Assembly (NCBI GenBank): GCA_903885605.1
Contig: CAISJD010000011.1
Coordinates: 1-64,000, forward strand
Reading direction: 5' to 3'
DNA: 64,000 nucleotides
Origin: an uncultured Chthonomonas sp.
GTDB lineage: Bacteria > Armatimonadota > Chthonomonadetes > Chthonomonadales > CAJBBX01
Below the pieces are notes generated by a model. It was not told where the DNA came from. It did no database searches and was given only the letters and a program-made list of their open reading frames with translations. Within the stretch, counting starts at the first letter, position 1, and each line of letters starts with the position of its first letter. Position numbers and translations under genes: made by a program. Positions 8,329 to 43,300 of this stretch are shown here, piece by piece.

Positions 8329-8367
8329 GTGGCGCAGAGGCGCCTGCAATGGGAGGAAGGAAGCGAG

Positions 8368-11766: not shown

Positions 11767-12726
11767 ATGCCGTCACTCGACGATCGTTACCGTGCCATGC
11801 TGTTCGAGACCCCGGAGTGCATCCCTGTGAGCGTCGGCATCCTGCCGGCGGCGTGGATGAAGTACCGGGAGGAGCTTGAGGCCATCACGGCCAGGCATCC
11901 GGCGCTCTTCGGGCAGTCGGGCTCACGCGACTTCGACGCGGTTGGCGGGACCTACGTGGCCGGCGATCACGTGGATGCCTGGGGATGTGTCTGGCAGAAC
12001 ATCCGCACCGGGTGCGAATCGATCGTGACGGGCCACCCCGTGGCCCGGCGAGAGGATGTGCGCTCCCTGCACATGCCGACGACTGACATCGGCTTCCCTC
12101 ACGGCTTCATGTACCTGCGCCTGCAGGACCTGCGCGGCTTTGAGGAGCTCATGGTTGACTTCGCCGAGGAGCCCGAGGAGCTGGGCATGCTGGTCGACCT
12201 CGTCCTCCAGTACAACCTGCGCCAGGTAGCCCGCCACCTGCCTGCGATCCAGGCCGAAGGACAGATCATCGGCTTCGGCGACGACCTGGGGATGCAGTTG
12301 TCGCTGCCCATGAGCCCGGCGAAGTGGCGCAAGTACCTCAAGCCCTGTTTTGAAGCCATCTACAGGCCCTACCGCGACGCCGGGCACTACGTGTATATGC
12401 ACACTGACGGCCACATATGGGAGATTATCCCGGATCTCGCCGAGTGCGGCGTCAACGTGGTGAACCCGCAGGTGCGGGCCAACGGCCTCGACAACCTGGC
12501 CCGCGTCTGCAAGGGCAAGGTCTGTGTTTCGCTGGATCTGGACAGGCAGCTCTTTCCCTTCTGCACTCCCGCAGAGATCGACGCGCACGTCCGCGAGTCG
12601 GTCAAGACGCTGGGGAGCAAGCAGGGCGGCCTGTGGCTGGTTGCCGAGATCGGCGACGATGTGCCGCTGGAGAACTGCGAGGCCATCTTCACGGCGCTGG
12701 AGCGCTACCGCGGCTACTTCAGTTGA
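11767..12726 (+). CDS. Uroporphyrinogen decarboxylase-superfamily protein (methyltransferase-like)
   Basis: A 319-residue TIM-barrel protein of the UroD/MtaA/CmuA superfamily. Visible pieces include GFMYLRLQDLRGFEELMVDFAEEPE, GFGDDLGMQLSLPMSPAKWRKYLKP and YVYMHTDGHIWEIIPDLAECGVNVVNP, the last being the family's usual barrel segment. The haem-type enzyme is unlikely because no other haem genes are near, and such proteins are very abundant in glycan-degrading bacteria. Members of this superfamily can move methyl groups on corrinoids, but the substrate here is unknown. A second paralogue lies at 33.2-34.2 kb. Confidence 0.8.
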   Translation: MPSLDDRYRAMLFETPECIPVSVGILPAAWMKYREELEAITARHPALFGQSGSRDFDAVGGTYVAGDHVDAWGCVWQNIRTGCESIVTGHPVARREDVRSLHMPTTDIGFPHGFMYLRLQDLRGFEELMVDFAEEPEELGMLVDLVLQYNLRQVARHLPAIQAEGQIIGFGDDLGMQLSLPMSPAKWRKYLKPCFEAIYRPYRDAGHYVYMHTDGHIWEIIPDLAECGVNVVNPQVRANGLDNLARVCKGKVCVSLDLDRQLFPFCTPAEIDAHVRESVKTLGSKQGGLWLVAEIGDDVPLENCEAIFTALERYRGYFS

Positions 12727-26218: not shown

Positions 26219-26351
26219 GGATACCTCGCGTGGGCCCAGGGCCGATGGTTGCCATAGTGTAGCGCGAAGCCCTCGAAGCGCGATGTGGGGTAAGACTACG
26301 GTGACGCCGCTGATCCACTGTGGGCGGTCGACACATAGACGGGGGATACGC

Positions 26352-28703
26352 ATGGCACTCGGGATCCTGGCTGCACTCTCCGTACTGCTGCTCCCGGCCG
26401 CGGAGGCCGACTTCGTGCTGGTGAAGGAGGGCAAGCCCACCGCGTCGATCGTTGTGGACGCCGCCTGCCTGGCGACGGCGCCCGGACCCGAGGCCGCCAA
26501 GCGGCGCGCTGCGGCCCTGGACCTGCAGGACGTGATCCGGAGGATGTCGGGCGCCCTGTTGCCCATCGCATCGGCCGATGCGGCTCCTGCGGGCCGCCTC
26601 ATCCTGGTCGGGCCGAGCGCGGCCGCCGAACGAGCCGGTGTCGCGATCCCGTCGGGCCTGACGCCAGATCGGAAGGAGGAGGGGTTTGTCCTCCATTGCA
26701 CGGCGGACAGGCTGCTGCTGGCCGGCAACGACGCGGGGCCCTACCACGGCACCGAGTACGCCGTCTACAGCCTGCTCCACCGCCTCGGCGCCCGCTGGTT
26801 CATGCCCGGTCCGTATGGGGAGTACCTGCCCTCGACGCCCGACCTGAGCCTGCCGCCGGTGAGTGATCGCCAGACGCCCTCGTTCCGCCTCCGCAACTGG
26901 TGGCTGCACACCAACGCTGAGATGGCCGTGCAGGAACGGATCTGGAAGCTGCGCAACGGCATGAGCCCCGAGACGCCCATCGCGATCCCCGGCGATTCGT
27001 CCGTCCGTGGCGTGGTCGCCGACGCTGCGCTGGCCGCAACGAAGCCCGAGCTCTTCGCCAAGAACGCCGACGGTACGCCCAACCTGTCGCTGCCCAACCT
27101 GACCGGCGCCGAGGCCCGTCAGTTGGCGGCCGACAAGATCAAGGCCATCTTCCGGGCGGACCCCAACGTGGCCTCGCACGGGATCGCGCCGGACGACGGG
27201 CTGCCGCGCGACTTCGGCGCCGAGACCCGCAAGCTGAACCAGAACTTCGTGCAACTGGGCGGCCGCGAGGGCGAGCCCGCCGAGGTGAGCACCAGCGAGG
27301 AGTGGTTCTCCTTCGTCAACGCCGTCACCCGCGAGGTGAACAAGGAGTTCCCGGACCGGATCGTCGTGACGAACGGCTACGCCAACCGAGACCTGCCGCC
27401 CTTCGGCGTGGCCATCGACCCGCACATCAGCGTGATGTATGCCGCCATCTGGTCGGATACGCTCCACGCCTACGACGACGCGAAGAGCTGGCAAGCCGTG
27501 CGGCAGGGCCAGAACCTGCGCCGCTGGGCGGGAATGTGCGACAAGGTGTGGGTCTACGGTTACGACTACACGATGCTCACCACCGGGCTCACGCCCGTGC
27601 CGGTGACGCGCAAGCTGGCGCGCGACCTGCCGCTGATGCAGAAGTGGGGGGTCATCGGCTTCCACAGCGAGTCGCGCAACGTCTGGATGGAGAGCGGCAT
27701 ACTCACCCGCTACCTGCGCGCCCGCCTGCAGTGGAACACGGCCCTTGACGTCAAGGGCGCCGCCCAGGACTTCCACAGCCGCTGGTACGGCGCTGCCGCC
27801 GCGCCCGCCGCGGCGTTCTGGGATGCCATCGAGCAGGTGATCGAGGGCACGCACATGCTGGGGCACGAGGACCGCGTGTTGCCGTATGTGTACACCCCTG
27901 AACTGATCGCGGCCCTCGACGGGCATGTGACCGAGGCCGAGCGTCTCGCCGCCGACGATCGATCTAAGGTCCACGTGCGGGCCGATCGCCTCATCCTCGA
28001 CCATCTGAAGGCATACATGGCCATGAACCAGGCCGAGTTCGACGGCAAGTTTCTCGAAGCCGCCCGCCAGGCCGACGCCATGATGGCCTGCCGCAAGCAG
28101 CTCAATGCCATCAACCCGCTCTACTGCCTCGCCGACGAGCAGCGGTACGACTCCGGCGTCTGGTACTGGGGCGCCCTGGACCGCGCCGCCTACTACCGCA
28201 AGCTGGCCGACCAGACGGAAGGGCGCACCGGGGATCTGGTGGCGCTTCTGCCCGAGAGGACGGCGTTTCGAACCGATCCCACAGACACGGGCCGCTTCTC
28301 CGGCTGGTATGAGCCCTCCCTCAACGCGGCGGCATGGCCCACGGTGGCAACCACCAAGCCCTTCTACGCCCAGGGCTTCATGTCGGGTGACGGCTATCCC
28401 TACACGGGCGCCGCCTGGTACCGGTTCACTGCTGACGTGCCCGCCTGGGCCAAAGGGCGGAAGGTGCGCCTCTTCGCGCCGGCCGTCGAGACCGAGGCGT
28501 GGGCCTGGGTGAACGGCCGCTACGTCGGACACAGGGCCTACCGCGAGGCCTACGAGCGGCCCAACGAGCTTTCGTTGGATATCTCGGATGCCCTGAAGCC
28601 CGGCGCGCGCAACGAGGTGGCCATCCGCGTCCATACGAGCCTGAACCCCGCCGCGGCGGGAGGCGGGCTTGTTTCGCGTGTGATGCTGATCGCGGACAAG
28701 TAG
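26352..28703 (+). CDS. Secreted DUF4838 glycoside hydrolase-like protein
   Basis: A 783-residue exported protein. Signal peptide: MALGILAALSVLLLPAAEA. An N-terminal alpha-glucuronidase-like domain (KRRAAALDLQDVIRRMSGALLPI) is followed by the typical GTEYAVYSLLHRLGARWFMPG, the DUF4838 barrel (HGIAPDDGLPRDFG, FVNAVTREVNKEFPDRIVVTNGYAN, GVIGFHSESRNVWMESGILTRYL) and a C-terminal jelly-roll (WYRFTADVPAWAKGRKVRLFAP, EAWAWVNGRYVGHR). The catalytic residues are not defined by me. ATG 26352 follows GGGGGA and gives a clean signal peptide; the track start at 26043 is antisense to the divergent gene. Together they suggest secreted glycan breakdown. Confidence 0.87.
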   Translation: MALGILAALSVLLLPAAEADFVLVKEGKPTASIVVDAACLATAPGPEAAKRRAAALDLQDVIRRMSGALLPIASADAAPAGRLILVGPSAAAERAGVAIPSGLTPDRKEEGFVLHCTADRLLLAGNDAGPYHGTEYAVYSLLHRLGARWFMPGPYGEYLPSTPDLSLPPVSDRQTPSFRLRNWWLHTNAEMAVQERIWKLRNGMSPETPIAIPGDSSVRGVVADAALAATKPELFAKNADGTPNLSLPNLTGAEARQLAADKIKAIFRADPNVASHGIAPDDGLPRDFGAETRKLNQNFVQLGGREGEPAEVSTSEEWFSFVNAVTREVNKEFPDRIVVTNGYANRDLPPFGVAIDPHISVMYAAIWSDTLHAYDDAKSWQAVRQGQNLRRWAGMCDKVWVYGYDYTMLTTGLTPVPVTRKLARDLPLMQKWGVIGFHSESRNVWMESGILTRYLRARLQWNTALDVKGAAQDFHSRWYGAAAAPAAAFWDAIEQVIEGTHMLGHEDRVLPYVYTPELIAALDGHVTEAERLAADDRSKVHVRADRLILDHLKAYMAMNQAEFDGKFLEAARQADAMMACRKQLNAINPLYCLADEQRYDSGVWYWGALDRAAYYRKLADQTEGRTGDLVALLPERTAFRTDPTDTGRFSGWYEPSLNAAAWPTVATTKPFYAQGFMSGDGYPYTGAAWYRFTADVPAWAKGRKVRLFAPAVETEAWAWVNGRYVGHRAYREAYERPNELSLDISDALKPGARNEVAIRVHTSLNPAAAGGGLVSRVMLIADK

Positions 28704-29281: not shown

Positions 29282-30403
29282 CTACCCGATGGTCATCGGG
29301 TCGCCGTGGATCGGCGGCAGCGGGTGTGGGCGGACCATGATGCCGCCCTGCTCGTAGCTCTCCATGACCGCCCAGGTGTACTCGAGCGCGGCCAGGGCGT
29401 CGCGGCCGGAGGCGCGGACGTTCTCGAAGTAGACCTGATTCTCCACATCCTCCAGGAAGGCGTGGATGCGGCGGGGGAAGGTCTCGCCGAAGTCCGTGAT
29501 CCCGGTGTTCATCGTCTCGGGCTCGTTGGAGCCGCCGCCGGGCTTGTCGGCGGAGCCGGCCGCCTCGCTGCCGGGCGCGGGCCAGAACGTGATCTTCTCG
29601 ATGCAGTTCTCGATGCAGAAGGTGCCCCTGGTGCCGGCCACCTCGATGCTCCACCAGCCGCCCAGGCCGTAGGTGGCGTCGCCGCGCTGGCTGAGCAGAA
29701 CGCCGACGCAGTCGTTGGCGAACTTCACGTTGACGCTCACCGAGGAGAGCATGACATCGCTGGCGCTGCGGCGGCAGCCGGGCCGGTTGGCGAAGGCCTG
29801 GACGTGCGTGACGTCGCCGCAGAAGTAGCGCATCACGCTGAACGGGTGCGACAGGAAGGCCTTGAGGTGGGCATACGGGAAGCCCCACCAGCGGGAGTCC
29901 TTCATCGGCGCATAGGTGGGCTCGCCGGCGGAGAAGCCCATCTTGTGCAGGCAGTAGACCATCTCGCCGATGCGGCCATCCTTGATGTACTGCATGGCCT
30001 TCTCGGCGGGCGGCGTGAAGTAGTGGTTCAGGTTGCAGCCCAGCCGGACGCCCTTCTCGGCGGCCTTGGCGACCAGCTGCCGGGCCTCGCCCACGTCGTT
30101 GCAGAGCGGCTTCTCGACCAGCACGTTCTTGCCGGCCTCGACGGCCTCCATGGCCGGCTCGAAGTGCCAACTGCCGTTCTCGTAGCCGCCGGTGGTCACG
30201 TCGACCATGTCCAGGTCTTCGTTGCGCAGCATGTCCGTCAGGCTGTAGTAGGCTCGGACGCCCATCTTCTCGGCCGCTTCATCGGCGCGGGCCTTAACGA
30301 CGTCGCAGACCGCCACGAAGTCGCTCAGGGGGTCGGCCTTGTGCGCGTTGGCGTGGCCCATGCCGATGCCGCGCATGCCCACGATCCCTACCTTGACTGC
30401 CAT
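29282..30403 (-). CDS. Gfo/Idh/MocA family oxidoreductase (cytoplasmic)
   Basis: A 373-residue NAD(P)-binding oxidoreductase. Rossmann start VKVGIVGMRGIGMGHANAH, the conserved EKPLCNDVGEARQLV with its Lys, then NLNHYFTPPAEKAMQYIKDGRIGEMV and the C-terminal alpha/beta domain. No signal peptide, in contrast to the Tat-exported relative at 22.6 kb. Last gene of the minus-strand operon, 27 bases after the sulfatase-like gene. A role in oxidising the sugar or inositol-like compound imported by the operon is inferred from context. Confidence 0.9.
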   Translation of the reverse strand: MAVKVGIVGMRGIGMGHANAHKADPLSDFVAVCDVVKARADEAAEKMGVRAYYSLTDMLRNEDLDMVDVTTGGYENGSWHFEPAMEAVEAGKNVLVEKPLCNDVGEARQLVAKAAEKGVRLGCNLNHYFTPPAEKAMQYIKDGRIGEMVYCLHKMGFSAGEPTYAPMKDSRWWGFPYAHLKAFLSHPFSVMRYFCGDVTHVQAFANRPGCRRSASDVMLSSVSVNVKFANDCVGVLLSQRGDATYGLGGWWSIEVAGTRGTFCIENCIEKITFWPAPGSEAAGSADKPGGGSNEPETMNTGITDFGETFPRRIHAFLEDVENQVYFENVRASGRDALAALEYTWAVMESYEQGGIMVRPHPLPPIHGDPMTIG

Positions 30404-30430
30404 CTGTCTTGGTCCTTTCCTAGCCGGCCG

Positions 30431-31837
30431 CTACTTGCGGGCCTCGGCCTGCAGCCGGGCGGCCTGGCCCGGGTCGCCGATATGCAGCGTGTCGTACGCC
30501 TGCTGCGATGACGTGAACGGCCCAACGCCCTCGTACCCGTGCCAGTCGCCCTGGGTGAGCATGGGGTTGGCGGCGCCGGTCTCGGCCTCGCGCCTGGCGA
30601 TCCACGCCTCCATGCGGCCCTTCAGGCAGGCCACCACGTCGGGGTAGGTCTCGGCGAGGTTGTTGTACTCCTCGGGATCCTGTACGAGGTTGTAGAGCTC
30701 CACCGGCGGCTTGAAGTGGAAGTCCGGCTCCAGCGCGACCATGAGCTTCCACTCGGGGGTCCGCCAGCCGTGCTTCCGCATCCAGGTGCACTCGGTGATG
30801 TAGATCTCGGTCTCGTGGGAGGCCGCCTCGCCGCGTACCATGTCCATGAGGCTCTTGCCGTCGAACTCATGGCCCGGCGTCTCGATCCCCGTGAGCTCGA
30901 GCAGCGTGGGGACGAGGTCCTTGTGCTGGTTGTAGCCGGTGATCCGCTTGCCCGCGGGCACCTTGCCGGGGTACTTGATAATCAGCGGCACGTGCAGCGT
31001 GCAGTCGTACATGCCATGGTGATCGAACCAGCAGTCGTGGTCGTAGAGCGTCTCGCCGTGGTCCGAGGTGATGACGACGATGGTCTCATCCTCGATGCCC
31101 AGCTTCTCAAGGCTGGTGAAGATCGCCTGGATGGCGGAGTCCATGTAGGCTACCGCGCCGTCGTATTGGGCGACGACGTAGTCCTTGTCCGAGCAGCCCA
31201 CGGGGAGCCACGCCGCGAAGTAGTCGCAAAAGGGCTTGAAGGTCATCACCGGCTCCATGGACTGGTTGGCCGGATCGCACTCGTCGCCGTGGTAGAAGAT
31301 GCGCTCGAAGGGCGCCGGCGGCAGGTACGGGGTATGCGGGTCCATGTGGCGGAGGAAGAGCAGGAAGGGCTGGTCCTGCTCGGCCAGGCGCTTCAGCTCG
31401 GGGATCGCCACGGCGTTCAGGTTCTCGGCCTTCGGGCTCTTGCCGTCCTTCTCGGCGCCCCAGCCGGAGAAGTCCAGGTAGGTGTCGAAGCCGCGGGAGG
31501 CCGGGTTGCCGGTGAAGCCGACGCAGGTGGTGGTGTAGCCGTTCTCGCGCAGGATCTCGGCGAGCGTCTTCACTCCGTCGCGGAGGCCGCCTCGGTGGCG
31601 GAGGGCCACGACGGAGGTGCCGAAGCAGTCCATGCCGGTCAGCATGTTGGAGTAGCCGCTGGTGGTCGGTATGTGGGCGCTGATGGCGTGCTCGAACAGG
31701 GTGGCTTCGGCCGCGAGCTTGTCCATGTGCGGCGTGGTGTTCAGCGGATAGCCATAGCAGCTCATGTGGTCGGCCCGGAGGGAGTCGATCCCCAGGAGTA
31801 GGATGTTGGGCTTGCGCCCGGTGCAGCAGGTGCTCAT
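30431..31837 (-). CDS. Sulfatase-like hydrolase (alkaline phosphatase superfamily) with Thr at the nucleophile position
   Basis: A 468-residue enzyme with the sulfatase fold: metal-ligand region NILLLGIDSLRADHMSCYGY (Asp18), later VITSDHGETLYDH and the family end YNLVQDPEEYNNLAE. The formylglycine motif C/S-x-P-S-R-x-x-x-x-T-G is replaced: the aligned stretch is TTSGYSNMLTG (Thr58). Thr nucleophiles occur in phosphodiesterase and phosphatase branches of the superfamily, so this is probably not a classical sulfatase. No signal peptide is seen; the protein starts MSTCCTGRKPN. It sits between the toroid-like and Gfo/Idh genes of the operon. The substrate is unknown. Confidence 0.85.
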   Translation of the reverse strand: MSTCCTGRKPNILLLGIDSLRADHMSCYGYPLNTTPHMDKLAAEATLFEHAISAHIPTTSGYSNMLTGMDCFGTSVVALRHRGGLRDGVKTLAEILRENGYTTTCVGFTGNPASRGFDTYLDFSGWGAEKDGKSPKAENLNAVAIPELKRLAEQDQPFLLFLRHMDPHTPYLPPAPFERIFYHGDECDPANQSMEPVMTFKPFCDYFAAWLPVGCSDKDYVVAQYDGAVAYMDSAIQAIFTSLEKLGIEDETIVVITSDHGETLYDHDCWFDHHGMYDCTLHVPLIIKYPGKVPAGKRITGYNQHKDLVPTLLELTGIETPGHEFDGKSLMDMVRGEAASHETEIYITECTWMRKHGWRTPEWKLMVALEPDFHFKPPVELYNLVQDPEEYNNLAETYPDVVACLKGRMEAWIARREAETGAANPMLTQGDWHGYEGVGPFTSSQQAYDTLHIGDPGQAARLQAEARK

Positions 31838-31930
31838 TGTACGCGTGTCCTCAAGGAAAGTGTGGTGCTTCTGGGCGTTGTTTGACAGCGGGCAGGCGTT
31901 TTCCTGCCCTGTGGCCGCACAATCGGCGGT

Positions 31931-33199
31931 TCAGGTCAATCGGCGTGCGGCGCGCACCGCCACGAGCTGGGCGGGAAGGCAATAGGGTGCGGCGGGCGCC
32001 CCCGCGGGCAGCGTGACCTGCTCGTAGGCGGTCATGTGGCCCTCGGCCTGGTGGTAGAGGATGTGGCCCCAGAGGCAGTAGCGGACCTCGCTCCTGAGCT
32101 TGAGGCGCCACATCCCGTCGAGCAGGTCCGCCATGGGCCAATCGTCGGCGCGGTCGAGGAAACGGGTCATGCCGAGCCACTGGCCGCCGCCCGCCAGCCG
32201 CGCCGCCACGATGCGGTGGGAGAGGTCCTCCGTCAGGGCGTCGCTGGCCAGCAACTCCGGCCAGTAGCGGTAGTTGGTGTAGGATCCGAGTTCTGTGTCG
32301 GTGACGCGCTCCTTCGGCGCCTCCATGCCGAGGCCTGCGGGCTCCTCTGCGAAGGGCGCCAGCCACCAGGGCGTGCGGGTTGCGCCCCATGTCTCGCGGA
32401 CGGCTCCGTTCAGCGTGAGGCGCAGGCGGAGGGCCGTGCGGGCCGAATCTACCGCATCGCCCGCGAGCCCCAGCTTCTTCTCCGCCAGCCATGCCCAGTC
32501 GCGCAGGCCACGGGAGATCCATGCGGCGTTGTGGAAATAGCGCGCGGGCAGGTGGGCCATGTCGGCTTCGGGCACGCCGGATGGAAGCTCGGGCATGGGC
32601 GCGGGACCGACCACGTCGGCCAGCATCCGCGCGATCCGAAGGAAGGGCGTGCAGTGGAGGCGGACCCACGCCCTCGCGCCGCCCCGTTCGGCCACTCGGC
32701 GGAGCGTGGTCAGGAGCTGGCCGTACTCGCTGAGCGAGGGCGCGTAGTAGTCGACCGTGCCGTCCTGCCGCACGAACCGCCGGGTCCACGCCTCCAGCAG
32801 TTGCTGGGCGCGTTCGGTGAACCCCCAGGCCGTCAGCGCATCGACGGCGGCGATGATGGTGGGCGGGAAGCCGTCGTGCTCCTCGGCGGCGTAGGCGTCG
32901 GCGCCGTACTTGGGCTGGTCGCCCTGGAACGTCAGGTCGATGTGCGCCAGGCCGATGCGAACGGCCTTCTCCATCAGCGGGTGCTCGAACCGAGCGCCTT
33001 CGGGCAGCGCCAGCGCGTCGGCCAGCCGCTTCACACGGCGCGGGTCGAAGGCGGGCTCGCCCTGCAGCGCAGGAGCGCAGCGGCGCATGCGGAGGGCTGT
33101 GCGCTTGCCCGCGGTCAGCAGGTCTGGCCGGTAGGGGTCCTCCAGCGTCTCGAATGGGCCGGGCATGGGCTCCAGAGCCGGCGTCGCCGGATCAGTCAT
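31931..33199 (-). CDS. Hypothetical protein, probable alpha/alpha-toroid (six-hairpin) fold
   Basis: I do not recognise a named family. The 422-residue protein is all-helical with repeating Trp/Tyr-rich helix pairs (GFPPTIIAAVDALTAWGF, FHNAAWISRGLRDWAWLAEKK, WPMADLLDGMWRLKLRSEVRYCLWGHILYHQAEGH), a pattern common in six-hairpin glycosidases and lyases. No signal peptide. It overlaps the UroD-like stop by 8 bases, so it is translationally coupled. A polysaccharide- or oligosaccharide-degrading role is inferred only from fold impression and operon. Confidence 0.7.
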   Translation of the reverse strand: MTDPATPALEPMPGPFETLEDPYRPDLLTAGKRTALRMRRCAPALQGEPAFDPRRVKRLADALALPEGARFEHPLMEKAVRIGLAHIDLTFQGDQPKYGADAYAAEEHDGFPPTIIAAVDALTAWGFTERAQQLLEAWTRRFVRQDGTVDYYAPSLSEYGQLLTTLRRVAERGGARAWVRLHCTPFLRIARMLADVVGPAPMPELPSGVPEADMAHLPARYFHNAAWISRGLRDWAWLAEKKLGLAGDAVDSARTALRLRLTLNGAVRETWGATRTPWWLAPFAEEPAGLGMEAPKERVTDTELGSYTNYRYWPELLASDALTEDLSHRIVAARLAGGGQWLGMTRFLDRADDWPMADLLDGMWRLKLRSEVRYCLWGHILYHQAEGHMTAYEQVTLPAGAPAAPYCLPAQLVAVRAARRLT

Positions 33200-34244
33200 G
33201 GAACACCCGGCTGGCCTTCACGTGCTCGATGAACCGATCCATCATGCTGTCGGGGATGTTGGACGGCATATGGTTGCCCACGGCAAGGATGACCCCGGCG
33301 CACTGCCGCGCGATGCGCAGTGTCTCGTCGATGGTCTCGCGCACCGTCTCCCACGTGCCGAATGAGAGGTCGCGGCAGTCCACGCAGCTCCCGACCAGCG
33401 CCTTGCTCTTGCCCACGCGCTCTGCCATGGCGCCGAACCGGTTGCAGGGCTCGAAGATGAAGCCGTCAGCGCCGGCCTCGGAGAGGTCCTCCACGAACAT
33501 CTCGAACAGCCCGTCGGAGCAGAAGAGGACCTTCTTCCCGGCGGCGTGGAGGGGCTTCCACAGCTCGGCGTAGCGGGGAATGATGATGTCGCGGTAGATT
33601 GAGGGGTTCATGAAGGCGCCGGCGCTCCAGACGAAGTCGTCGTGCTGGATGATGACCTCCACGCTGGTCTGCGCCCAGGCCTTCATATGGTGCAGCGTGA
33701 AGAGGAAGAAGCGGTCCCAGACCGCCTCCATGCGCTTGCGGTTGGCGGCCGCCTCCAGCAGCATGTCCCATCCGAAGGCCTGGATGCCGCCGGAGACGAT
33801 GGTCTTGTAGTAGCCGCCCGTCACAAGCTGGTTGGGCCGCGACTGGAGCGCCGCCGTGACGCCGCGCTGGTAGGCCGCCACCTGCTCGTCGAAGTCCGGC
33901 AGCCCGTACTCGGCTACAGGGTCGAAGGCCCAGACCTCTTCCGGCGAGGTGAAGGGGCAGGTAGCGGGCTGGTGCAGGTCGCTGCCGTCACCGGCGTAGG
34001 CCGCGTGGCCCATGTCGGTGCAGCGGCCGCGGGCGCCCCAGTTGCCGTGGAGGCCGTCGTCGGTGCTCCAGCAGAGGTCGATGCCCCAGTCGTCGTAGAG
34101 TGCGCGCCAGAGGCCGGGGTCGTCCTGCGCCAGACCCAGCCGGGCGGCGGCGTACTCGGGATGGTACTCCAGGCTGTACTCGGTGTGGCCCACCTGGCCG
34201 GTGGGTCTCAGATTGATGATATCAAGGGCCAGTTGGCGGCTCAT
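33192..34244 (-). CDS. Uroporphyrinogen decarboxylase-superfamily protein (second paralogue)
   Basis: A 350-residue UroD/MtaA-like protein. Characteristic parts are DWGIDLCWSTDDGL, VIIQHDDFVWSAGAFMNPSIYRDIIIPRYAELWKPLHAAGKKVLFCSDGLFEMF and GADGFIFEPCNRFGAM, corresponding to the C-terminal barrel half of the family. Its similarity to the 11.8-kb copy is modest. Position inside an import/catabolism operon argues against haem synthesis and for a demethylation or other sugar-derivative role; this is inference. It is 15 bases from the GNAT gene. Confidence 0.8.
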   Translation of the reverse strand: MSRQLALDIINLRPTGQVGHTEYSLEYHPEYAAARLGLAQDDPGLWRALYDDWGIDLCWSTDDGLHGNWGARGRCTDMGHAAYAGDGSDLHQPATCPFTSPEEVWAFDPVAEYGLPDFDEQVAAYQRGVTAALQSRPNQLVTGGYYKTIVSGGIQAFGWDMLLEAAANRKRMEAVWDRFFLFTLHHMKAWAQTSVEVIIQHDDFVWSAGAFMNPSIYRDIIIPRYAELWKPLHAAGKKVLFCSDGLFEMFVEDLSEAGADGFIFEPCNRFGAMAERVGKSKALVGSCVDCRDLSFGTWETVRETIDETLRIARQCAGVILAVGNHMPSNIPDSMMDRFIEHVKASRVFHD

Positions 34245-34259
34245 GGCGTCCTCCGGGGT

Positions 34260-35426
34260 CTAGAAGGAATCATTGGTCCACATGGGCGGGCCCGCGAAGA
34301 AGCGCTCCATGGCAGCGCACTGCGCTTCGTCGTGGACGGTGATGAGGCCGGCCCGGCGCAGCTGGCCCGTCGTCGGGGCGCCGTAGAGGCACTGCGAAAG
34401 CTCGCCGATTTCGATCTCGATGCCCGGATCTGTCGTGGTCGGCGCCACCGAGGCCTCGCCTGAGGCTGCCGTCACAGTCCACGTCCCATCGTTCCACGGC
34501 GCGCTTGGGTCGGCCACGCGCACGATGAAGGAGGCCTCGACGCCGCGTGAGGCGCCCCAGGCCCGGAGCGCGGCGGGAACATCGACGATGCGGCCCTGCG
34601 TCACCGGCGCCGTTCGGGTCTCAAGGTCCCAGTGGCAGAGGTGGCAACGGAGGTCGTCGTCGGCGGGGGCTTCCCACTCGAACCGCGAGACCTGCATGTC
34701 GTGGCGGCGCAGCAGGCCGAGGAGTGCGCGCTTGGCCGCCGGCGTCCGGCAGATTAACTCGCGGAGGTGCGTGCTGTCTCGGCTCCCGCCGCGGTAGGTG
34801 AGGTAGCCCTCCAGCGTCCCATCCGCGGGATAGAGGTAGGTATAGGTGAACTCCTTCTCCGCGTGGCCGAGCATCTGCTTCCACTGCGCCTCGTCGCGGG
34901 CGATGAGGCCCCGGTAGCCTGCGGCGAACCGGCCGTAGAGCTCCTGGACAGCGGCGTGGTCGGCCTCCTCGGCGGCGCGCACGTGGCGGGTCTCGGGGCA
35001 GTTCTGCATCGCGGAGGTGGGAACGCCGTAGCGGCGCTTCTCGCCCACCCACGCCCAGCCCAGGCGCCGGTAGTAGGCCCAGCTGAAGGGGAAGAGCGTG
35101 GAGATCGTCTGGCCCTCGTCGCGCATACCCTCCAGGGCCCTGCGCATGCACATGCCCGCGTAGCCCTTGCCGCGCGCCGTGGGGTGGCAGGCCACGCCGG
35201 CGATGCCTCCCATCTTCATCACGAGGTCGCCGCCCATGTGGCACTCGTAGGGCGCGATGGCCGCCTGCGCCTTCAGCGTGGCTCCCTCGAAGACCCCGTA
35301 GCCGTTCATGGCCTGGGTGGAAGGGTCGCGGATCCACCCGTCGTCCCTGCCTCCGCGCATGAAGGCCTGGGAGATGAGGCCGAAGACCTGGCCCAGGTCG
35401 TCCTCAGTGATGCGGCGAAGCTCCAT
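34260..35426 (-). CDS. Eis-like GNAT N-acetyltransferase
   Basis: A 388-residue protein with the two-GNAT plus sterol-carrier-like layout of the Eis family. N-terminal GNAT motif: GGIAGVACHPTARGKGYAGMCMRRALEGM (acetyl-CoA pyrophosphate loop ARGKGY), then TISTLFPFSWAYYRRLGWAWVG. The second GNAT-like and C-terminal parts (residues about 190-385) are divergent. Eis acetylates aminoglycosides and amines in mycobacteria, but other members have unknown substrates. It sits in the operon between UroD-like and permease genes, so it may acetylate a catabolic intermediate. Confidence 0.85.
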   Translation of the reverse strand: MELRRITEDDLGQVFGLISQAFMRGGRDDGWIRDPSTQAMNGYGVFEGATLKAQAAIAPYECHMGGDLVMKMGGIAGVACHPTARGKGYAGMCMRRALEGMRDEGQTISTLFPFSWAYYRRLGWAWVGEKRRYGVPTSAMQNCPETRHVRAAEEADHAAVQELYGRFAAGYRGLIARDEAQWKQMLGHAEKEFTYTYLYPADGTLEGYLTYRGGSRDSTHLRELICRTPAAKRALLGLLRRHDMQVSRFEWEAPADDDLRCHLCHWDLETRTAPVTQGRIVDVPAALRAWGASRGVEASFIVRVADPSAPWNDGTWTVTAASGEASVAPTTTDPGIEIEIGELSQCLYGAPTTGQLRRAGLITVHDEAQCAAMERFFAGPPMWTNDSF

Positions 35427-35459
35427 CGGTGCGTTTCCTCTGTGATCGGCGCGGTGTCG

Positions 35460-36443
35460 TCAGGCCGTCTCGGTGCGTCCGCCGGACTGCTTGCCCGGCG
35501 CCATGTTGATCAGCACCGCGGTAAGGATCAGCCCACCGCGCACGACGTGCTGCCAGTACTCGTTCACGTTCATCAGCGTCATCCCGTTGACCAGCACGCC
35601 GAGGAAGACGAGACCGATGAGGGTACCACGCACGGAGCCCGCGCCGCCCAGAAGGCTGGTGCCGCCGATGATGACCGCCGAAATGACGTCCAACTCCCAG
35701 CCCTGCGCCGTCGTCGCGGAGCCGGACATGATCTGCGCGGCCTGCAGGATGCCCGCCAGCGCCGAGCAGAAGCCCACGATGGCCATGACCCTGATCTTGA
35801 TGCCGCCCACGTCGAGCCCGCTCAGGCGCGCCGCCTCCACGTTGCCGCCCACGGCGTAGACCGACCTGCCGAACGCGGTCTTGTGCATGACGATATGCAC
35901 GATGACAAAGGTGATGAGGAACAGGATCGCGGGGAAGGGGACGCCCATCCAGTAGCCGCCGCCCAGAAAGTTGAACCAGTCGGGGAAGGGCGTGAGCGGG
36001 AAGCCGTTCGTGATGAGTTCCGACGCGCCCTTGAGTACCGTGAGCCAGGCCAGGGTGGCGATGAAGGTGGGCACACGGAACCGCGACCGCAGGTAGCCGG
36101 TCAGCGCGCCGACGCAGGAGCCCAGCGCCAGGGCGCAGGCCATGCCCACGACGACCGCGGCGACGGGCGGCATATGGCAGCGCTCCATGCCGAACTGGGT
36201 GACCCAGGCCGTGACGCACCCAGCGAAGGCCACGGCGGAGCCCACCGAGAGGTCGATCTCGCCCGCAATGATGGCCGCCGTCATGCCGAAGGCGATGATC
36301 CCCTGCATGGAGACGTTGCGCAGCACGTTGAGCAGGTTTGCCCTGGTGAGGAACCCCTGAACCGAGCAGGCCAGAAGGATGCAGAGCGCCAGGAGGATCA
36401 CCTCCATGACGCTCTGCCGGATGTGGGGGAGCTTGCGCGGCAT
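35460..36443 (-). CDS. Ribose/sugar-type ABC transporter permease (RbsC family)
   Basis: Membrane channel subunit for sugar import. The family signatures are NLLNVLRNVSMQGIIAFGMTAAIIAGEIDLSVGSAVAFAG and YAVGGNVEAARLSGLDVGGIKI, plus ISAVIIGGTSLLGGAGSVRGTLIG near the end; about 9-10 helices. I take ATG 36443, which forms a TGATG overlap with the binding-protein stop; the track start at 36461 would overlap it by 19 bases. There is no RbsA-type ATPase gene next to it, which is unusual. Confidence 0.93.
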   Translation of the reverse strand: MPRKLPHIRQSVMEVILLALCILLACSVQGFLTRANLLNVLRNVSMQGIIAFGMTAAIIAGEIDLSVGSAVAFAGCVTAWVTQFGMERCHMPPVAAVVVGMACALALGSCVGALTGYLRSRFRVPTFIATLAWLTVLKGASELITNGFPLTPFPDWFNFLGGGYWMGVPFPAILFLITFVIVHIVMHKTAFGRSVYAVGGNVEAARLSGLDVGGIKIRVMAIVGFCSALAGILQAAQIMSGSATTAQGWELDVISAVIIGGTSLLGGAGSVRGTLIGLVFLGVLVNGMTLMNVNEYWQHVVRGGLILTAVLINMAPGKQSGGRTETA

Positions 36444-37441
36444 CAGCCGTTCGACATCCATTCCTTGAGCTGCTTCTCGAAGGCCGCGATGCCCGCAGGA
36501 TCATCACGAGAGAGGCAGATGCCGGTCATGGCAACATGCTTCTCCACCGGCTCGCCCTTCATGGCCTTCAGGGCGAACTCCACGGCCGTGCGGCCCACGT
36601 CCACCGGCTTCTGGCTGGTGATGGCCTGCAGGATGCCGTCCGGCGCCTTGAGGAAGCCCACCAGCTGTTCGCTGGAGTCGGTGCCGAAGACGGCGATCTT
36701 GCCGGCCTTGCCCGCGTTCTTCACGGCCATGACGGAGCCGATGGTCCCGCCCTCGTTGGCCGACCAGATCAGGTCGATCTCGGGGTGCGCCGTCAGGATG
36801 TCTCCGGCCTTCTTCACGGCCTGCTCAGGCAGCCAGGCGTCCTGCTCGGCGACGATCTTCACGCCGGGCATGCCCTGGATCTGCTCCTTGAAGCCGTTGG
36901 TGCGGGCGTCGCTCTGCTCGGGGATCAGCGACTTGAAGGCCAGGATGGCGATCGTCGCCTTGCCGCCCATCTTCTGCTCGATATAGGCGCGCGCCTTCTT
37001 GCCGGTCTGCTCACCCAGGTTGAAGGCGTTGCTCTCGATGTAGGCCTTGTGGAAGTTGCCCTCAATGGGCGTGTTGGCCGCGATAATGGTGATGCCCTTG
37101 TCGGCGGCGGGCTTGAGGGCGGCCACGGAGCCCTTGGCGCTGAGCGGCGAGAGGATAATGGCGTCCACGCCCTGCGAGGCGTAGGTGTTGACCAGTTCGG
37201 CTTCCTTCTCGGGCTTGTTGTTGCTGTTGCCCTCCAGAAGCTCCACGTTGTTCTTCTTGGCGGCGTCGCGCATGCCGAAGAGCACCAGCCGGAAGTACTG
37301 GTCTTCCTGGAAGATGATGCCGGCGATGCGCTTCTTGGGTGCGCCGGTGGACGTGGCGGATTGCTTGGGGCTGCGACAGCCGAAGAGTGTGATGCACGCG
37401 ACCACGGTGAGTGCGAACAGAGACGGCCGAAGACGGTTCAT
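36443..37441 (-). CDS. Sugar ABC transporter substrate-binding lipoprotein (RbsB-like)
   Basis: Periplasmic binding protein type I of 332 residues, anchored as a lipoprotein. The signal ends at LFGC (lipobox Cys22 in MNRLRPSLFALTVVACITLFGC). Then AGIIFQEDQYFRLVLFGMRDAAKK, VNTYASQGVDAIILSPL and AANTPIEGNFHKAYIESNAFNLG, LIWSANEGGTIGSVMAVKNAGKAGKIAVFGTDSS. First gene of the seven-gene minus-strand operon. The ligand cannot be assigned. Confidence 0.92.
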   Translation of the reverse strand: MNRLRPSLFALTVVACITLFGCRSPKQSATSTGAPKKRIAGIIFQEDQYFRLVLFGMRDAAKKNNVELLEGNSNNKPEKEAELVNTYASQGVDAIILSPLSAKGSVAALKPAADKGITIIAANTPIEGNFHKAYIESNAFNLGEQTGKKARAYIEQKMGGKATIAILAFKSLIPEQSDARTNGFKEQIQGMPGVKIVAEQDAWLPEQAVKKAGDILTAHPEIDLIWSANEGGTIGSVMAVKNAGKAGKIAVFGTDSSEQLVGFLKAPDGILQAITSQKPVDVGRTAVEFALKAMKGEPVEKHVAMTGICLSRDDPAGIAAFEKQLKEWMSNG

Positions 37442-37604
37442 GGCGTTCCCCCTGGCGCCGGCCCAGCGAGCCGCCGGCGTGGTGGTTAGTTCGCCACGCA
37501 CGGGCGTATGACCTGCCTGCACGGCGCGAGGCGGCACGGCGCAGACGCGGGCCAGGCGCGTCGCCCGTTGAGATACACTCTGTGTAGCCGTAGGAGGAAG
37601 CGCC

Positions 37605-37838
37605 ATGGATGTCAGACTTGCCCGGTGGGACAACAGCCTGGCCGTCCGGGTGCCTCGGTCCCTCGTCGCGGAGCTTGGCCTCGTTGGCGGATCGCCCTTG
37701 GATGTTTCGTTTGAGGCGGGGGCGCTTGTGTTCCGTCCGTCTGATCCCGCCGTGGAATTGGAACGGCTCGTGCAGGCGATCACGCCCTATGACCGGCATG
37801 ACCTGGAGGCGGCTTACGATGACTTTCCGACGGGCTAA
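37605..37838 (+). CDS. Orphan MazE/AbrB-like antitoxin
   Basis: A 77-residue swapped-hairpin DNA-binding protein. It has the MazE pattern DVRLARWDNSLAVRVPRSLVAELGLVGG and ends with an acidic tail (ITPYDRHDLEAAYDDFPTG), which in antitoxins binds the toxin. TAGGAGGAAGCGCC before ATG is a strong ribosome binding site. No PIN, PemK or other toxin follows; instead the next gene overlaps it by 20 bases. It is divergent from the sugar operon, so it could act as a local regulator or be a remnant of a toxin-antitoxin pair. Confidence 0.85.
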   Translation: MDVRLARWDNSLAVRVPRSLVAELGLVGGSPLDVSFEAGALVFRPSDPAVELERLVQAITPYDRHDLEAAYDDFPTG

Positions 37839-39816
37839 GCTTGCTTGCGTCGTTCTCGTGGCCCTGGCTTCGTGGCCGCCGCCGCCGGTCGCGGCTCTGC
37901 AGGGCGATGGTAGGCTCGCGCCGGCTTTCCCCGCCGCTGTCTACCCGCCGGCCAGATCCGGCGCCGCGCCGGTGTCCGAGGTGGCGTTCCGCGAGACGCC
38001 TGAGACGCTGCGCTACGGGTTCAACGTGCCGTTCCCGGCCGCCCGCCGGCGGTCGTTCGCCGTGGATGACTACGGCGCCCGACCCGACGGCAGGACCGAC
38101 TGCACACCCGCCTTCGCTCGGGCCTGGGCCGAGGCGCGCCGTTGCTCGGCGCCTGCGGAACTGCTCTTTCGGCGCACGGGGCGCTACCTGTTCCGTCCCG
38201 ACCCGGCGCTGGGATCCGATGAGTTAGCGATCCTCAACCTGCGCAAGGCGGTCGGCCTGCGGGTTCGCGGACAGGGGCCGGGCACGGTGCTTGTCATGGC
38301 GGACCCGAAGCTAGGCGGCCTCCAGGTGACCGACAGCTCGTGCGTCATGCTCCAGGGCTTCACCGTGGACTACAACCCGCTCCCGTTCTCCCAGGGATCG
38401 GTCACGCAAGTGGACCCGGCCGCGGGCTGGTGTCGCATGCGGTCCGATGCGGGGTACCCCTCTCCGATCGAAACGGCGGCGCGCATCCCCGGCTTCCACG
38501 GCGGATATGTGCTCCAGCAGGCGGACGGCTACCGGTGGTTGCCGATCGGAGGGGTGACGCCACGAACGCCGCCGTCTGCCGAGGGCGCTGAGACCCGCTT
38601 CGATGTGGGCGGCGACGCGGCACGGACGCTCAAGGCCGGCGACCGGTTCGTCTTCGTGGGGCGGCGCATCGCCCAGACGGCCCTCAGCGCCTGCTTCACG
38701 CGGTCGTTCTATGTCAAGGATGTGATCGTCCATGCCTCTCCGACCTGCGGGCTCCTGCTGAACAACGTGGACGGCGCCTGCATCGACGGCTACGCCGACG
38801 AGATTCCAGCCGGGTCGGATCGCTTGCTGGCCACCAACGCCGACGGGCTCTACGTGCATAACGTGCGCGGCGGCATCACCATCCGGAACTGCCGGTTCAT
38901 GGGACAGGGCGATGACTGCATCAACCTCCACACCACCGCATGGGGTAGTCAGTGGTTCCGCCCCGTGGGCGACCGGGATATCGCAATCGCATCGCCGGTC
39001 GACCTCCGCAAGGGCGACACGATCGAGATCATGGACCCGACCGTGGGTAGGATCAAGGGCTCGATCCGCGTCTTGTCTGTGGCTTCCAATGCAGCCCACG
39101 AGGTCACCCGCTGTCGCCTGGCCTCCCCACTGAGCAGCGTCGGCTACGACCCCAAGACCGACGCCGCCTACGTGACCGACCTGGCCGGCTCAAACTTCAA
39201 GATCGTGCGCTGCCGTTTCGGGCAGAACCGTAGCCGCTGTATGCTCATCCAGGCGCGGCATGGCCTGATTCAGGCCAACACCATCGAGAACGCAGAGGGT
39301 TACGGCGTGCTGCTGGGCTACGGCGGCACGGCATGGGCCGAGGGCATCATTCCCGCAGATGTTACGATCCGGGATAATGTCTTTCGCAACGTCACCGGGG
39401 CAGGATTGGCGCCGACCATCGAGGCCGGCGACGGCTCGTCATTCAGGAACCTCCGCCGGATCGTGGTGGAGGGGAACCGGTTCGTGAACCCGAGGAAGAT
39501 GGCGATCTCGGCCGCGGGGGTAGATGGGCTCACGATCTCCGGCAACCGCGTCTCCACCGAGCCGGGCCGCCGCAACACGTGGAACCATCCCCAATGGTAT
39601 CCCGTGGACTGCAGCATCATCCTGCGCAACTGCTCCGGCGTCCTGGTGGATCGTCTCGATCTGGTCGACCGTTCCATCCGTGAGGCGGCGATCACCATCG
39701 GCGCCGACTGCGCGCCGGGCACTGCAGGCGTGACCCTCCGCGGCATCCGTGCCGACCTGGCGCCCGGCGTCCCGGTCGTGAGGGATGATCGGCCGGTGAC
39801 GCCTGGCCGGGGATAG
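37819..39816 (+). CDS. Secreted right-handed beta-helix protein (GH110/GH28-like)
   Basis: A 665-residue exported protein. Signal peptide: FRRAKLACVVLVALASWPPPPVAA. The body is a parallel beta-helix with the opening FAVDDYGARPDGRTDCTPAFARAW typical of pectate-lyase-like enzymes, HASPTCGLLLNNVDGA and the conserved GITIRNCRFMGQGDDCINLHTTAWG, which resembles the catalytic region of GH110 alpha-galactosidases and GH28 (Asp-Asp pair). Repeat coils such as GLTISGNRVS and VTIRDNVFRNV follow. ATG 37819 overlaps the antitoxin gene by 20 bases and gives the signal peptide; the upstream track start 37609 does not. Confidence 0.85.
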   Translation: MTFRRAKLACVVLVALASWPPPPVAALQGDGRLAPAFPAAVYPPARSGAAPVSEVAFRETPETLRYGFNVPFPAARRRSFAVDDYGARPDGRTDCTPAFARAWAEARRCSAPAELLFRRTGRYLFRPDPALGSDELAILNLRKAVGLRVRGQGPGTVLVMADPKLGGLQVTDSSCVMLQGFTVDYNPLPFSQGSVTQVDPAAGWCRMRSDAGYPSPIETAARIPGFHGGYVLQQADGYRWLPIGGVTPRTPPSAEGAETRFDVGGDAARTLKAGDRFVFVGRRIAQTALSACFTRSFYVKDVIVHASPTCGLLLNNVDGACIDGYADEIPAGSDRLLATNADGLYVHNVRGGITIRNCRFMGQGDDCINLHTTAWGSQWFRPVGDRDIAIASPVDLRKGDTIEIMDPTVGRIKGSIRVLSVASNAAHEVTRCRLASPLSSVGYDPKTDAAYVTDLAGSNFKIVRCRFGQNRSRCMLIQARHGLIQANTIENAEGYGVLLGYGGTAWAEGIIPADVTIRDNVFRNVTGAGLAPTIEAGDGSSFRNLRRIVVEGNRFVNPRKMAISAAGVDGLTISGNRVSTEPGRRNTWNHPQWYPVDCSIILRNCSGVLVDRLDLVDRSIREAAITIGADCAPGTAGVTLRGIRADLAPGVPVVRDDRPVTPGRG

Positions 39817-40318: not shown

Positions 40319-43300
40319 ATGATGTTCAGGTCCGCATGGTCGGTTCTAGGCGTTCTCGCGGCGGCGGCTCTGGCGGCGCCGGCGGTCGTGGCTTCTATGG
40401 GCGACGATGGGCTGTCGCCCGCCGAGGCGTTGGCGCGCAAGAGCGGCACGCCGCTGGCGGCGCAGCGCTCGTCGGCCTCCGTGGCTCCGTTCGCGGGCTA
40501 CTCAGCGCGCCCCTTCACCTTCGAGTGCCTGGCGCAGGTACGCTCGCGATCAGGTTTCAACATCCTCGTCGCCAACGAGGATAAGCCGTCGGCCACCCAC
40601 TGGGAGCTCTTCACCTGGCCCGATACCGGCGCCCTGACGGCCTATCTGCCCGGCTTCTCTCCGGACCATGTGCGATCGCAGCGCGACATCGGAGACGGGC
40701 GGTGGCACACGATCGGGTTCGTGCTGGAGGACCGCCGCGCGCGCCTCTACGTGGACGGCAAGCTGGAGGCCGACCAGGCCGTTGTGCCGCCCATCCGACC
40801 CGGCGCCGCGGGTCCGCTGGCGTTCGGATCGCTGGTGAACGGCGAGATCGGCTGCAACGGCCTGATCCTGCGCCCCCGGCTCTCGGCCGGGGTTCGCGAG
40901 ATCGCCGGCGTCCCTGCGGAGCCCTGGCAGGCCGATGCCGCCACCATCGGCCTCTGGGACTTCGGCGCGGCCATTGACGGCGGCTTCGCGGACCTCTCCG
41001 CCAACCGCCGCCCGGCCCTCTCCAAGGCCACGCAGGAGAACGGGCTCTGGCCCAACAACTTCCTCGGCGGCGAGACGTCCGAGTTCCGCCCCATGCCGCC
41101 GCGCGTCGCCGTGGCCGCCCAGCGCGCTCTGCTGGGGGGCGCCGTCCGACGCCTGGGCCTGAAGACGGTCTCGGCCGACCGGGTTCGCGACGGCGTCCTG
41201 CGCGACTGGCTGCTCCAGTACCGCCTCAACGGCTCCCGCGAGTACCCCGAGGCCGTCTGGGTCAAACCCGCCGATCTGGCCGGGCAGACGCTGGACGCGC
41301 AGGCCCTCCCGCAGGCGGGCGACACTGGGCCCTTCTCCGTGGCCCTGCGGCGCACGCGGGCGCTGATGAGGAACTTGGCGCGGCCGGGCGGCATTCCACT
41401 GGCCCACGAGGCCGCCGACCTGGACCTCATCGCCGCCGAGCATCGCCGTGCTATGGCTGCCACGGGTAGCGATGAAGACCAGGGCCTCTACCTGGCGCTC
41501 TGCGCCGTGCGCCGCCGCGTGGCCCTGGCCAATCCGCTGCTCGGCGATGCGCCCCTCCTCTTCGCCGCGCGCGGCACCTATGAGGGCTCCGTGCGCTCCA
41601 ACCCGGGCACCAGCGACGTCCAGGGCGGCCACTTCGCCACCCAGTACTTCGGCTTCAACGCCTGGCCTGGCGGCGGGCTCTATCTGGTGAAGGACTTGAA
41701 GTCGCCGACACCGCACATCGTGGACGTGGTCGCCTCATCGGTGGTGCAGAACGGGCGCCTGAAGGGCCGGAAGCTCGCGGGCGGCTCCTTCGCCACGCCG
41801 GACCTCTCGTTCGACGGCAAGACCGTCGTCTTCGCCTGGACGGCCAACAAGGAGCACCGCTGGGCCTTCAACCGCGAGACCTGCTTCCATCTCTTCCGCG
41901 TGAACGTGGACGGCTCGAACCTGATACAGCTCACGGACGGCCCCTTCGATGACTTCGACCCCTGTTGGCTGCCCGACGGCCGGATCGCTTTCGTTTCCGA
42001 ACGGCGCGGCGGCTACATCCGGTGCTTCGGCAACGTGCCCGTGCGGAACTTCACCCTCTTCAGCATCCGGCCCGACGGCACAGGCCTCCTGCCGCTGAGC
42101 TACTTCGAGACTGACGAGTGGAACCCCAGCGTCTCGAACGACGGGCGGCTCTTGTACACGCGGTGGGACTACACCGACCGCGAGAACTGCCTGGGCACGC
42201 GGCTCTGGATCGCCGGCGCCGACGGAACCGACGCCCGGTCGCCGCACGGCAACTACCCGCTTCCCTTCAGCACGCTGGACGGCAACCAGCCCTGGAAGGT
42301 GGTGAACGGCGCTCCGTTGCGTGACAGCCGGCTGGGTTCGCCGCTCGTCGAGATGGGCATGCGCGCCATTCCCGGTTCCCGCAAGATCATCGTCACCGCC
42401 GCTCCGCACCACGGCCAGGCCTTCGGCACGCTCTGCCTGCTGGACCTTTCCGTACCCGATGACGGCCACATGTCGCAGGTCAAGCGCATCACGCCCGACG
42501 AGCTCTTCCCGGAGAGCGAACTGCCCGGCCGACGCCACTACAAGTACGGCACGCCATGGCCGCTGAGCGAGGATTTCTACCTCTGCAACATCTGGGAGGA
42601 CCTCTTCCTGGTGGACCGCTACGGCAATCGGGAACTGCTCTGCGAGATCGACCTGCTGCCCTGTCCGCAGGACGAGCGGCTCAGGCTGGTCGACCCCATC
42701 CCCGTGCGGCAACGGGTCCGTCCGCCGGCGGTTGGGCCGCGCACCCGACCGTTAGCCCCGGCCAAGGCGGCCGCCAAGGCCACCGTGGCCGTGATGAACG
42801 TCTACGACGCCGACCTGCCGCTACCCAAGGGCGCGAAGGTGAAGTGGCTCCGCGTGACGCAGAACATCCTCAAAGAGAACCACCTCATGGGCGCTCCGAT
42901 GATCGGCTACGAGCGCGAGAACACACCGCGCATCCCCCTGGGCGTCGTGCCGGTAGAGGCCGACGGCAGCGTCTACTTTGAGGCGCCGGTAGCCAAGCAG
43001 CTTATCTTCCAGGCGCTGGACGAGAACTATATGGCCCTGCACTCCATGCGGGCCTGCGCATCGGTTCAGCCGGGTGAGCAATTGCGCTGCCAGGGGTGCC
43101 ACGAGAGCCCGCGCAAGGCGCCCAAGCCCTACGGCGTCCCAGCGGCGCTGAGGCGCGCACCCTCCAAGTTGCGGCCGGAGCTGGGCAGCGTGGAGCCGAT
43201 CAGCTACTATCGCCAGATCGCGCCCATCGTCGATCGCTCCTGCGCGCCCTGTCACGCCCGCACCGGCAAGGGGCCGGCGGATATGCGCTACGACGCGCTG

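Follow-up and report, generated by a model that had tools for sequence, protein, structure and literature searches.

The window analysed here (the whole stretch of DNA, 64,000 nucleotides) belongs to a Chthonomonadales-like metagenome-assembled genome of Armatimonadota from a lake, which is 100% complete and comprises 5.6 Mb in 211 contigs. Seven open reading frames lie in a row on the minus strand between positions 29282 and 37441, each present with the limits given below, and Pfam families are confirmed for six of the seven proteins; the fifth (P0003, the "toroid" protein) is without a family. The row, its leader and its two neighbours are as follows.

37972..39816, plus strand: right-handed beta-helix protein, divergent neighbour (Beta_helix E 1.4e-15; syntenic in the genus)
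37442..37500, minus strand: leader before RbsB, the best-conserved stretch adjoining RbsB in the divergent intergenic region, three species aligned
36443..37441, minus strand: P0007, RbsB-like sugar-binding lipoprotein (Peripla_BP_4 E 2e-46; lipobox LFGC)
35460..36461, minus strand: P0006, RbsC-like CUT2 permease (BPD_transp_2 E 1.2e-37)
34260..35426, minus strand: P0005, Eis-like GNAT acyltransferase (Acetyltransf_9, Acetyltransf_17 and SCP2_2)
33192..34244, minus strand: P0004, UroD-superfamily protein (URO-D E 2.4e-14)
31931..33199, alternative start 33166, minus strand: P0003, "toroid" protein (no Pfam or NCBIfam match; structure model)
30431..31837, minus strand: P0002, alkaline-phosphatase-superfamily hydrolase or "sulfatase" (Sulfatase E 1.9e-50, SGSH_C)
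29282..30403, minus strand: P0001, Gfo/Idh/MocA dehydrogenase (GFO_IDH_MocA E 7.5e-24; EKP motif)
26352..28703, plus strand: DUF4838 glycosidase-like protein, convergent neighbour (E 2e-33 on the longer frame 26043-28703)

The row is tightly packed, with gaps of 15-93 bp apart from overlaps. The RbsB and RbsC genes overlap by 19 bp, and the gaps measure 33 bp (RbsC–GNAT), 15 bp (GNAT–UroD), 93 bp (toroid–sulfatase) and 27 bp (sulfatase–Gfo). The UroD–toroid junction is an 8-bp overlap if the toroid gene starts at 33199 and a 25-bp gap if it starts at 33166, the start that a codon-usage gene predictor favours. A reading of this DNA made from its sequence alone had described seven minus-strand genes with short gaps or overlaps, and that description stands. 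Moreover, dN/dS relative to the sister species (L046) is 0.013-0.156 for all seven genes; values this low identify them as selected coding genes rather than chance open reading frames, under purifying selection. The row includes no regulator gene, and the promoter and terminator scan gave nothing above chance, a sigma-70-like promoter not being found. RNase P was the sole match in the Rfam search, and PADLOC gave no matches for five of the proteins.

The divergent intergenic region also carries a solitary MazE-like antitoxin gene (37605-37838, plus strand; PF04014 E 7.5e-6). In the sister species, a MazF/PemK toxin gene (L046:6677-7021; PF02452 E 1e-22), missing in the window, occupies the antitoxin site. 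Elsewhere on the plus strand are an exo-beta-N-acetylmuramidase NamZ followed by a 3-keto-disaccharide hydrolase (7135-9585), and a 1360-aa protein (40397-44479) with laminin-G, a hydrazine-synthase-alpha middle-domain match and PD40 repeats. The literature search returned no relevant paper on DUF4838, MmpH, UroD-like clusters or 3-keto/DUF1080.

Conservation of the gene order

The complete order occurs in three species of one genus only: that of the window, G003 (L018/L046) and G002, where a contig break interrupts the locus (L017/L047) and it continues in L222. The flanks are also syntenic in the genus, with the beta-helix gene upstream (its relatives adjoin RbsB in L046 and L222) and the DUF4838 and GxGYxYP genes downstream. 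Since general synteny in the genus is high, conservation of the order there says little by itself. The sequence-only reading had made conservation beyond this genome its test; the order is kept in three species but is absent beyond the genus. In 20 genomes of other genera, the UroD orthologues (49-66% identity) have no neighbouring genes in common, and the idea of a whole operon conserved via UroD orthologues was discarded on these loci. The UroD, GNAT and Gfo genes of the row are the only close copies that the genus has of genes distributed across the phylum or the order, and their orthologues in relatives are usually located away from one another, which makes a single dedicated pathway less likely. 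The proposal of an unrecognised pathway therefore holds in that no named pathway fits, and is weakened by the genus-limited order and the usual separation of these three genes elsewhere.

Outside the genus, the row splits into three separately conserved pieces: RbsBC, GNAT–UroD–toroid and "sulfatase"–Gfo/Idh. This pattern bears on the possibility that the row is incidental, its widely conserved and functionally unrelated genes having been joined in the genus ancestor with only a promoter in common. In many relatives, a genome holds a single close orthologue each of UroD, GNAT and Gfo, at unrelated places, and the order is limited to a genus in which synteny is high anyway; both features are what such an origin would leave behind. 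However, the phosphoesterase–Gfo pair recurs in 16 genomes, RbsBC occurs with Gfo in G010, toroid, UroD and GNAT genes occur together in sister genera, and genes in the row overlap. On balance we regard an incidental row as rather unlikely, and we favor a catabolic operon assembled from these pieces, the parts of which are considered below.

Importer genes and the orphan RbsA

The nearest solved relatives of P0007 are CUT2 ribose/allose-type binding proteins, while P0006 scores under all equivalog cut-offs. The importer predicted from the sequence is accordingly present as a binding protein and a permease, both with Pfam support, but none of the seven row genes encodes the RbsA double ATPase. 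In CUT2 importers of the RbsABC, AraFGH and MglBAC type, a lipoprotein and a BPD_transp_2 permease likewise head a catabolic row; the present row differs in lacking the ATPase gene, a function for which many pairs probably depend on a single RbsA elsewhere.

The genome has 13 RbsC matches (E below 1e-20) and four RbsA-type ATPases, three of which are part of longer frames or adjoin permeases of their own. The sole unfused RbsA is on another contig (C75:96682-98160; L233, L236), the listed genes of which include no RbsC; 0.47 kb separate its end from that of the contig, so one side is only partly visible. Its orthologue is found in 29 of the 31 genomes of the order, 64-97% identical and mostly unlinked to RbsC. 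In G018, a single contig, the orthologue is located at 1.29 Mb and separated by hundreds of kb from each of the RbsC genes listed; in G029 it adjoins an RbsC. These gene counts suggest that one orphan RbsA probably serves many RbsBC pairs in trans. A precedent is the MsmK-type ATPase, which is common to several streptococcal sugar importers (PMC4519317). There, too, one ATPase serves several importers; the difference is that MsmK belongs to streptococcal importers, whereas the ATPase considered here is of the RbsA type (CUT2), in Armatimonadota, and its sharing is deduced from gene counts only.

Other genera of the order, and also G216, have RbsB–RbsC homologues (45-72%). In G010 (L212) these stand in one same-strand row with a Gfo orthologue (79%), which links the dehydrogenase to the importer independently. 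The G010 row also includes two family-less TIM-barrel-like proteins of 463 and 499 aa (L212:8386-9777 and L212:4810-6309), which flank RbsBC in several Chthonomonadales genomes.

Proteins encoded downstream of the importer

P0003 matches nothing in the Pfam or NCBIfam profile libraries, and its sequence profile retrieved nothing useful from the PDB. Its structure was modelled from an alignment of 29 relatives (A1) with pLDDT 95 and pTM 0.94. Foldseek searches with this model return (alpha/alpha)6 glycosidases, including MmpH (7qsj; TM 0.59/0.69, 13% identity), dextran dextrinase, glucodextranase, GH63 enzymes, a fungal rhamnosidase and GH116. As judged from the model, the fold is of the (alpha/alpha)6 glycosidase type and nearest to GH63/GH15-like enzymes; one divergent relative matches PF22422 (MGH1-like) with E 0.0024, below the cut-off. 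In the GH63-type glucosylglycerate hydrolase, Asp182 is the acid, Glu419 the base and Asp43 binds the substrate (PMC6608630). The modelled loops alpha1-2, alpha5-6 and alpha11-12 of P0003 carry D98, E200/D202 and E382 (numbering starts at the ATG of 33166); 27-28 of the 29 aligned sequences retain each of these residues. We infer that E200 or D202 may act as the acid and E382 as the base, a GH63-like assignment by loop order and not by superposition. The exception to this conservation is a degenerate-looking protein of G028 (L052:10072-11274) on a very long branch, which has lost E200 and D202, has Asp for E382 and is a possible pseudoenzyme. P0003 resembles the GH63/MGH1-like mannosylglycerate/glucosylglycerate hydrolases and M. 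hassiacum MmpH in its (alpha/alpha)6 fold and, going by loop order, may have its acids in the corresponding loops. It differs from them in its 12-14% identity, a TM of about 0.6-0.7, the lack of a profile match and its own family motifs, SYTNYRYWPELL and TAYEQ.

Judged by record titles, relatives of the toroid protein occur in at least seven phyla (Armatimonadota, Planctomycetota, Verrucomicrobiota, Kiritimatiellota, Chloroflexota, Chlorobiota and Poribacteria), with 41-57% identity to the window protein in most phyla sampled. The window protein clusters with Chthonomonadales in the tree, and several relatives have twin-arginine-like leaders, as read from the alignment. In sister genera (G007-G009), a DUF4838-type protein has the toroid as its C-terminal half: the fusion L050:9236-11596 matches PF16126 (E 1.2e-10), and L048:8316-10625 and L049:10001-12373 were assigned by sequence similarity. 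Together with the DUF4838 gene that adjoins the operon, these fusions constitute a Rosetta-stone link. Toroid neighbours elsewhere include GH2, GH106, GH116 and GH42-like genes. In G007, G008, G009 and G010, which are all four toroid-bearing genomes of family f1 outside the genus, one or two UroD-like genes lie within 2 kb of the toroid gene, compared with 6% of control genes having UroD nearby; this control is rough, with non-random loci and profiles seeded with neighbours, and the signal is clade-limited. An Eis-type GNAT adjoins the toroid gene in three of these four genomes. The UroD and GNAT proteins concerned belong to subfamilies other than those of P0004 and P0005, and outside f1 the link fades, UroD being found within 5 kb at few toroid loci.

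P0004 is predicted (pLDDT 92.5) to adopt a UroD/MtaA-type fold, and the Pfam URO-D match covers only residues 165-344. Its family is phylum-wide, with the invariants H201-D202-D203, D244, E265-P266 (FEP) and G323-N324-H325. P0004 thus shares the fold and a C-terminal Pfam match with the UroD/MtaA superfamily, without the signatures of haem-UroD or CoM methyltransferases: the N-terminal MRQAGR-type motif of haem-UroD is absent from all 21 sequences of the alignment (A2), and the HxC...C zinc ligands of MtaA/MtbA are not conserved there, the corresponding segment reading F/Y-C/I/T-S/A-D-G/A with only D244 invariant. Against the PDB, its sequence profile gave only marginal HemE matches. A CoM-methyltransferase/corrinoid route was rejected on the missing zinc motif and an empty motif scan for B12 proteins. 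Related to this is the proposal that P0004 is a methyltransferase stripping methyl groups from a methylated sugar. O-demethylation of this kind is favoured by a fold resembling that of the M. mazei methyltransferase 4ay8 (TM 0.68-0.70) and a weak profile match to methylcobalamin:CoM methyltransferase; the unconserved zinc ligands, the lack of a corrinoid-binding protein in the motif scan of the window and of the surroundings of UroD orthologues, and the phylum-wide, unlinked distribution of the family all argue against it, and we consider it improbable. Another UroD-like protein is encoded at 11767-12726 (plus strand; PF01208 E 9e-10), and such genes are abundant in the phylum.

P0005 has the tripartite GNAT–GNAT–SCP2 architecture of Eis-type acetyltransferases. 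Its family carries an invariant C-terminal WxNDxF, Phe being the final residue. Of the 31 genomes of the order, 29 have the orthologue, and the copies examined sit at other places.

P0002 has the Sulfatase fold family and the DHG metal residues, with D259 and H260 invariant. T58-T-S-G-Y replaces the CxPxR motif, so that Thr58 aligns with the formylglycine Cys/Ser; Thr58 is kept in every relative that covers the site, and neither P0002 nor its close relatives have the P and R of CxPxR. Phosphoethanolamine transferases, phosphoglycerol transferases and nucleotide pyrophosphatases use Thr as their nucleophile; like P0002, these members of the superfamily combine Thr at that position with an intact DHG. 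P0002 differs from them in its soluble-looking sequence and in scoring closest to true sulfatases. The comparison suggests that P0002 is more likely a phosphoesterase than a sulfatase. The earlier designation as sulfatase-like is therefore right as to the Pfam match and fails at the formylglycine motif, which makes a true formylglycine sulfatase unlikely. Utilisation of a sulfated glycan, with P0002 as a true sulfatase, would fit the Sulfatase and SGSH_C matches and the presence of sulfatases among its best solved relatives. Thr58, the missing P and R, and the lack of an apparent signal peptide (sequence read by eye, no predictor) speak against such an operon, and we find it very improbable. 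A second Thr-type "sulfatase" copy in the same genome (G000:C192:57508-58908; L202), 77% identical, has no Gfo partner.

The partner of P0002 in the row, P0001, has the Rossmann domain and EKP motif of its family and scores 86.5 bits against the IolG (inositol 2-dehydrogenase) equivalog, short of the cut-off of 355. Of the 38 genomes with orthologues of both, 16 have them side by side; these span seven families (f1, f4, f9, f15, f40, f41 and f45), and the two genes are mostly 20-170 bp apart. Xylose-isomerase-like TIM barrels often adjoin the P0002 orthologues.

A proposed route for glycoside breakdown

An import pair combined with cytoplasmic carbohydrate-type enzymes in a single transcription-unit-like row fits no named pathway, in agreement with the sequence-only reading. 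That reading had also suggested a modified saccharide as substrate; the interpretation of the "sulfatase" as a phosphoesterase and the glycosidase-type fold predicted for the toroid protein both fit a modified glycoside and give this suggestion partial support. The genes and their order, the folds, the motifs present or missing, the conserved modules and the lack of a local ATPase are results of the analysis, and the route built on them is a proposal. We propose that the row serves the catabolism of a small glycoside as an operon specific to the genus, in which three parts that also occur separately in the phylum were joined, with RbsA supplied in trans and breakdown in the cytoplasm; we consider this about as likely to be right as wrong.

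In the order of steps that we infer, secreted glycosidase-like neighbours would release the small glycoside, RbsB would capture it outside the cell and RbsC would import it, with the shared orphan RbsA as the presumed ATPase. The imported glycoside is possibly phosphorylated. In the cytoplasm, P0003 would cleave an alpha-type glycosidic linkage hydrolytically, with inversion as in GH63, and P0002 would remove a phospho or, less likely, a sulfo group, assuming the phosphoester chemistry suggested above. P0001 would oxidise a sugar or inositol-like product, while P0004 and P0005 might modify side groups, on either the substrate or the product, by methyl or acyl transfer. A further-reaching proposal, which we put forward tentatively and think less probable than the operon itself, is that the toroid protein founds a new GH family in at least seven phyla and acts alongside the UroD-like and Eis-like proteins and the phosphoesterase–dehydrogenase pair; together they would process a modified alpha-glycoside, phosphorylated or methylated, by a route not yet described. 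The novelty would lie mainly in the toroid family and the gene combination, the parts being relatives of known kinds.

If one CUT2 ATPase does serve many importers, incomplete RbsBC loci in such genomes would have to be read differently. The model would also provide a testable function for a widespread and highly conserved toroid family that has no Pfam or NCBIfam model, as well as for a UroD subfamily and a phosphoesterase–dehydrogenase pair kept across a little-studied phylum.
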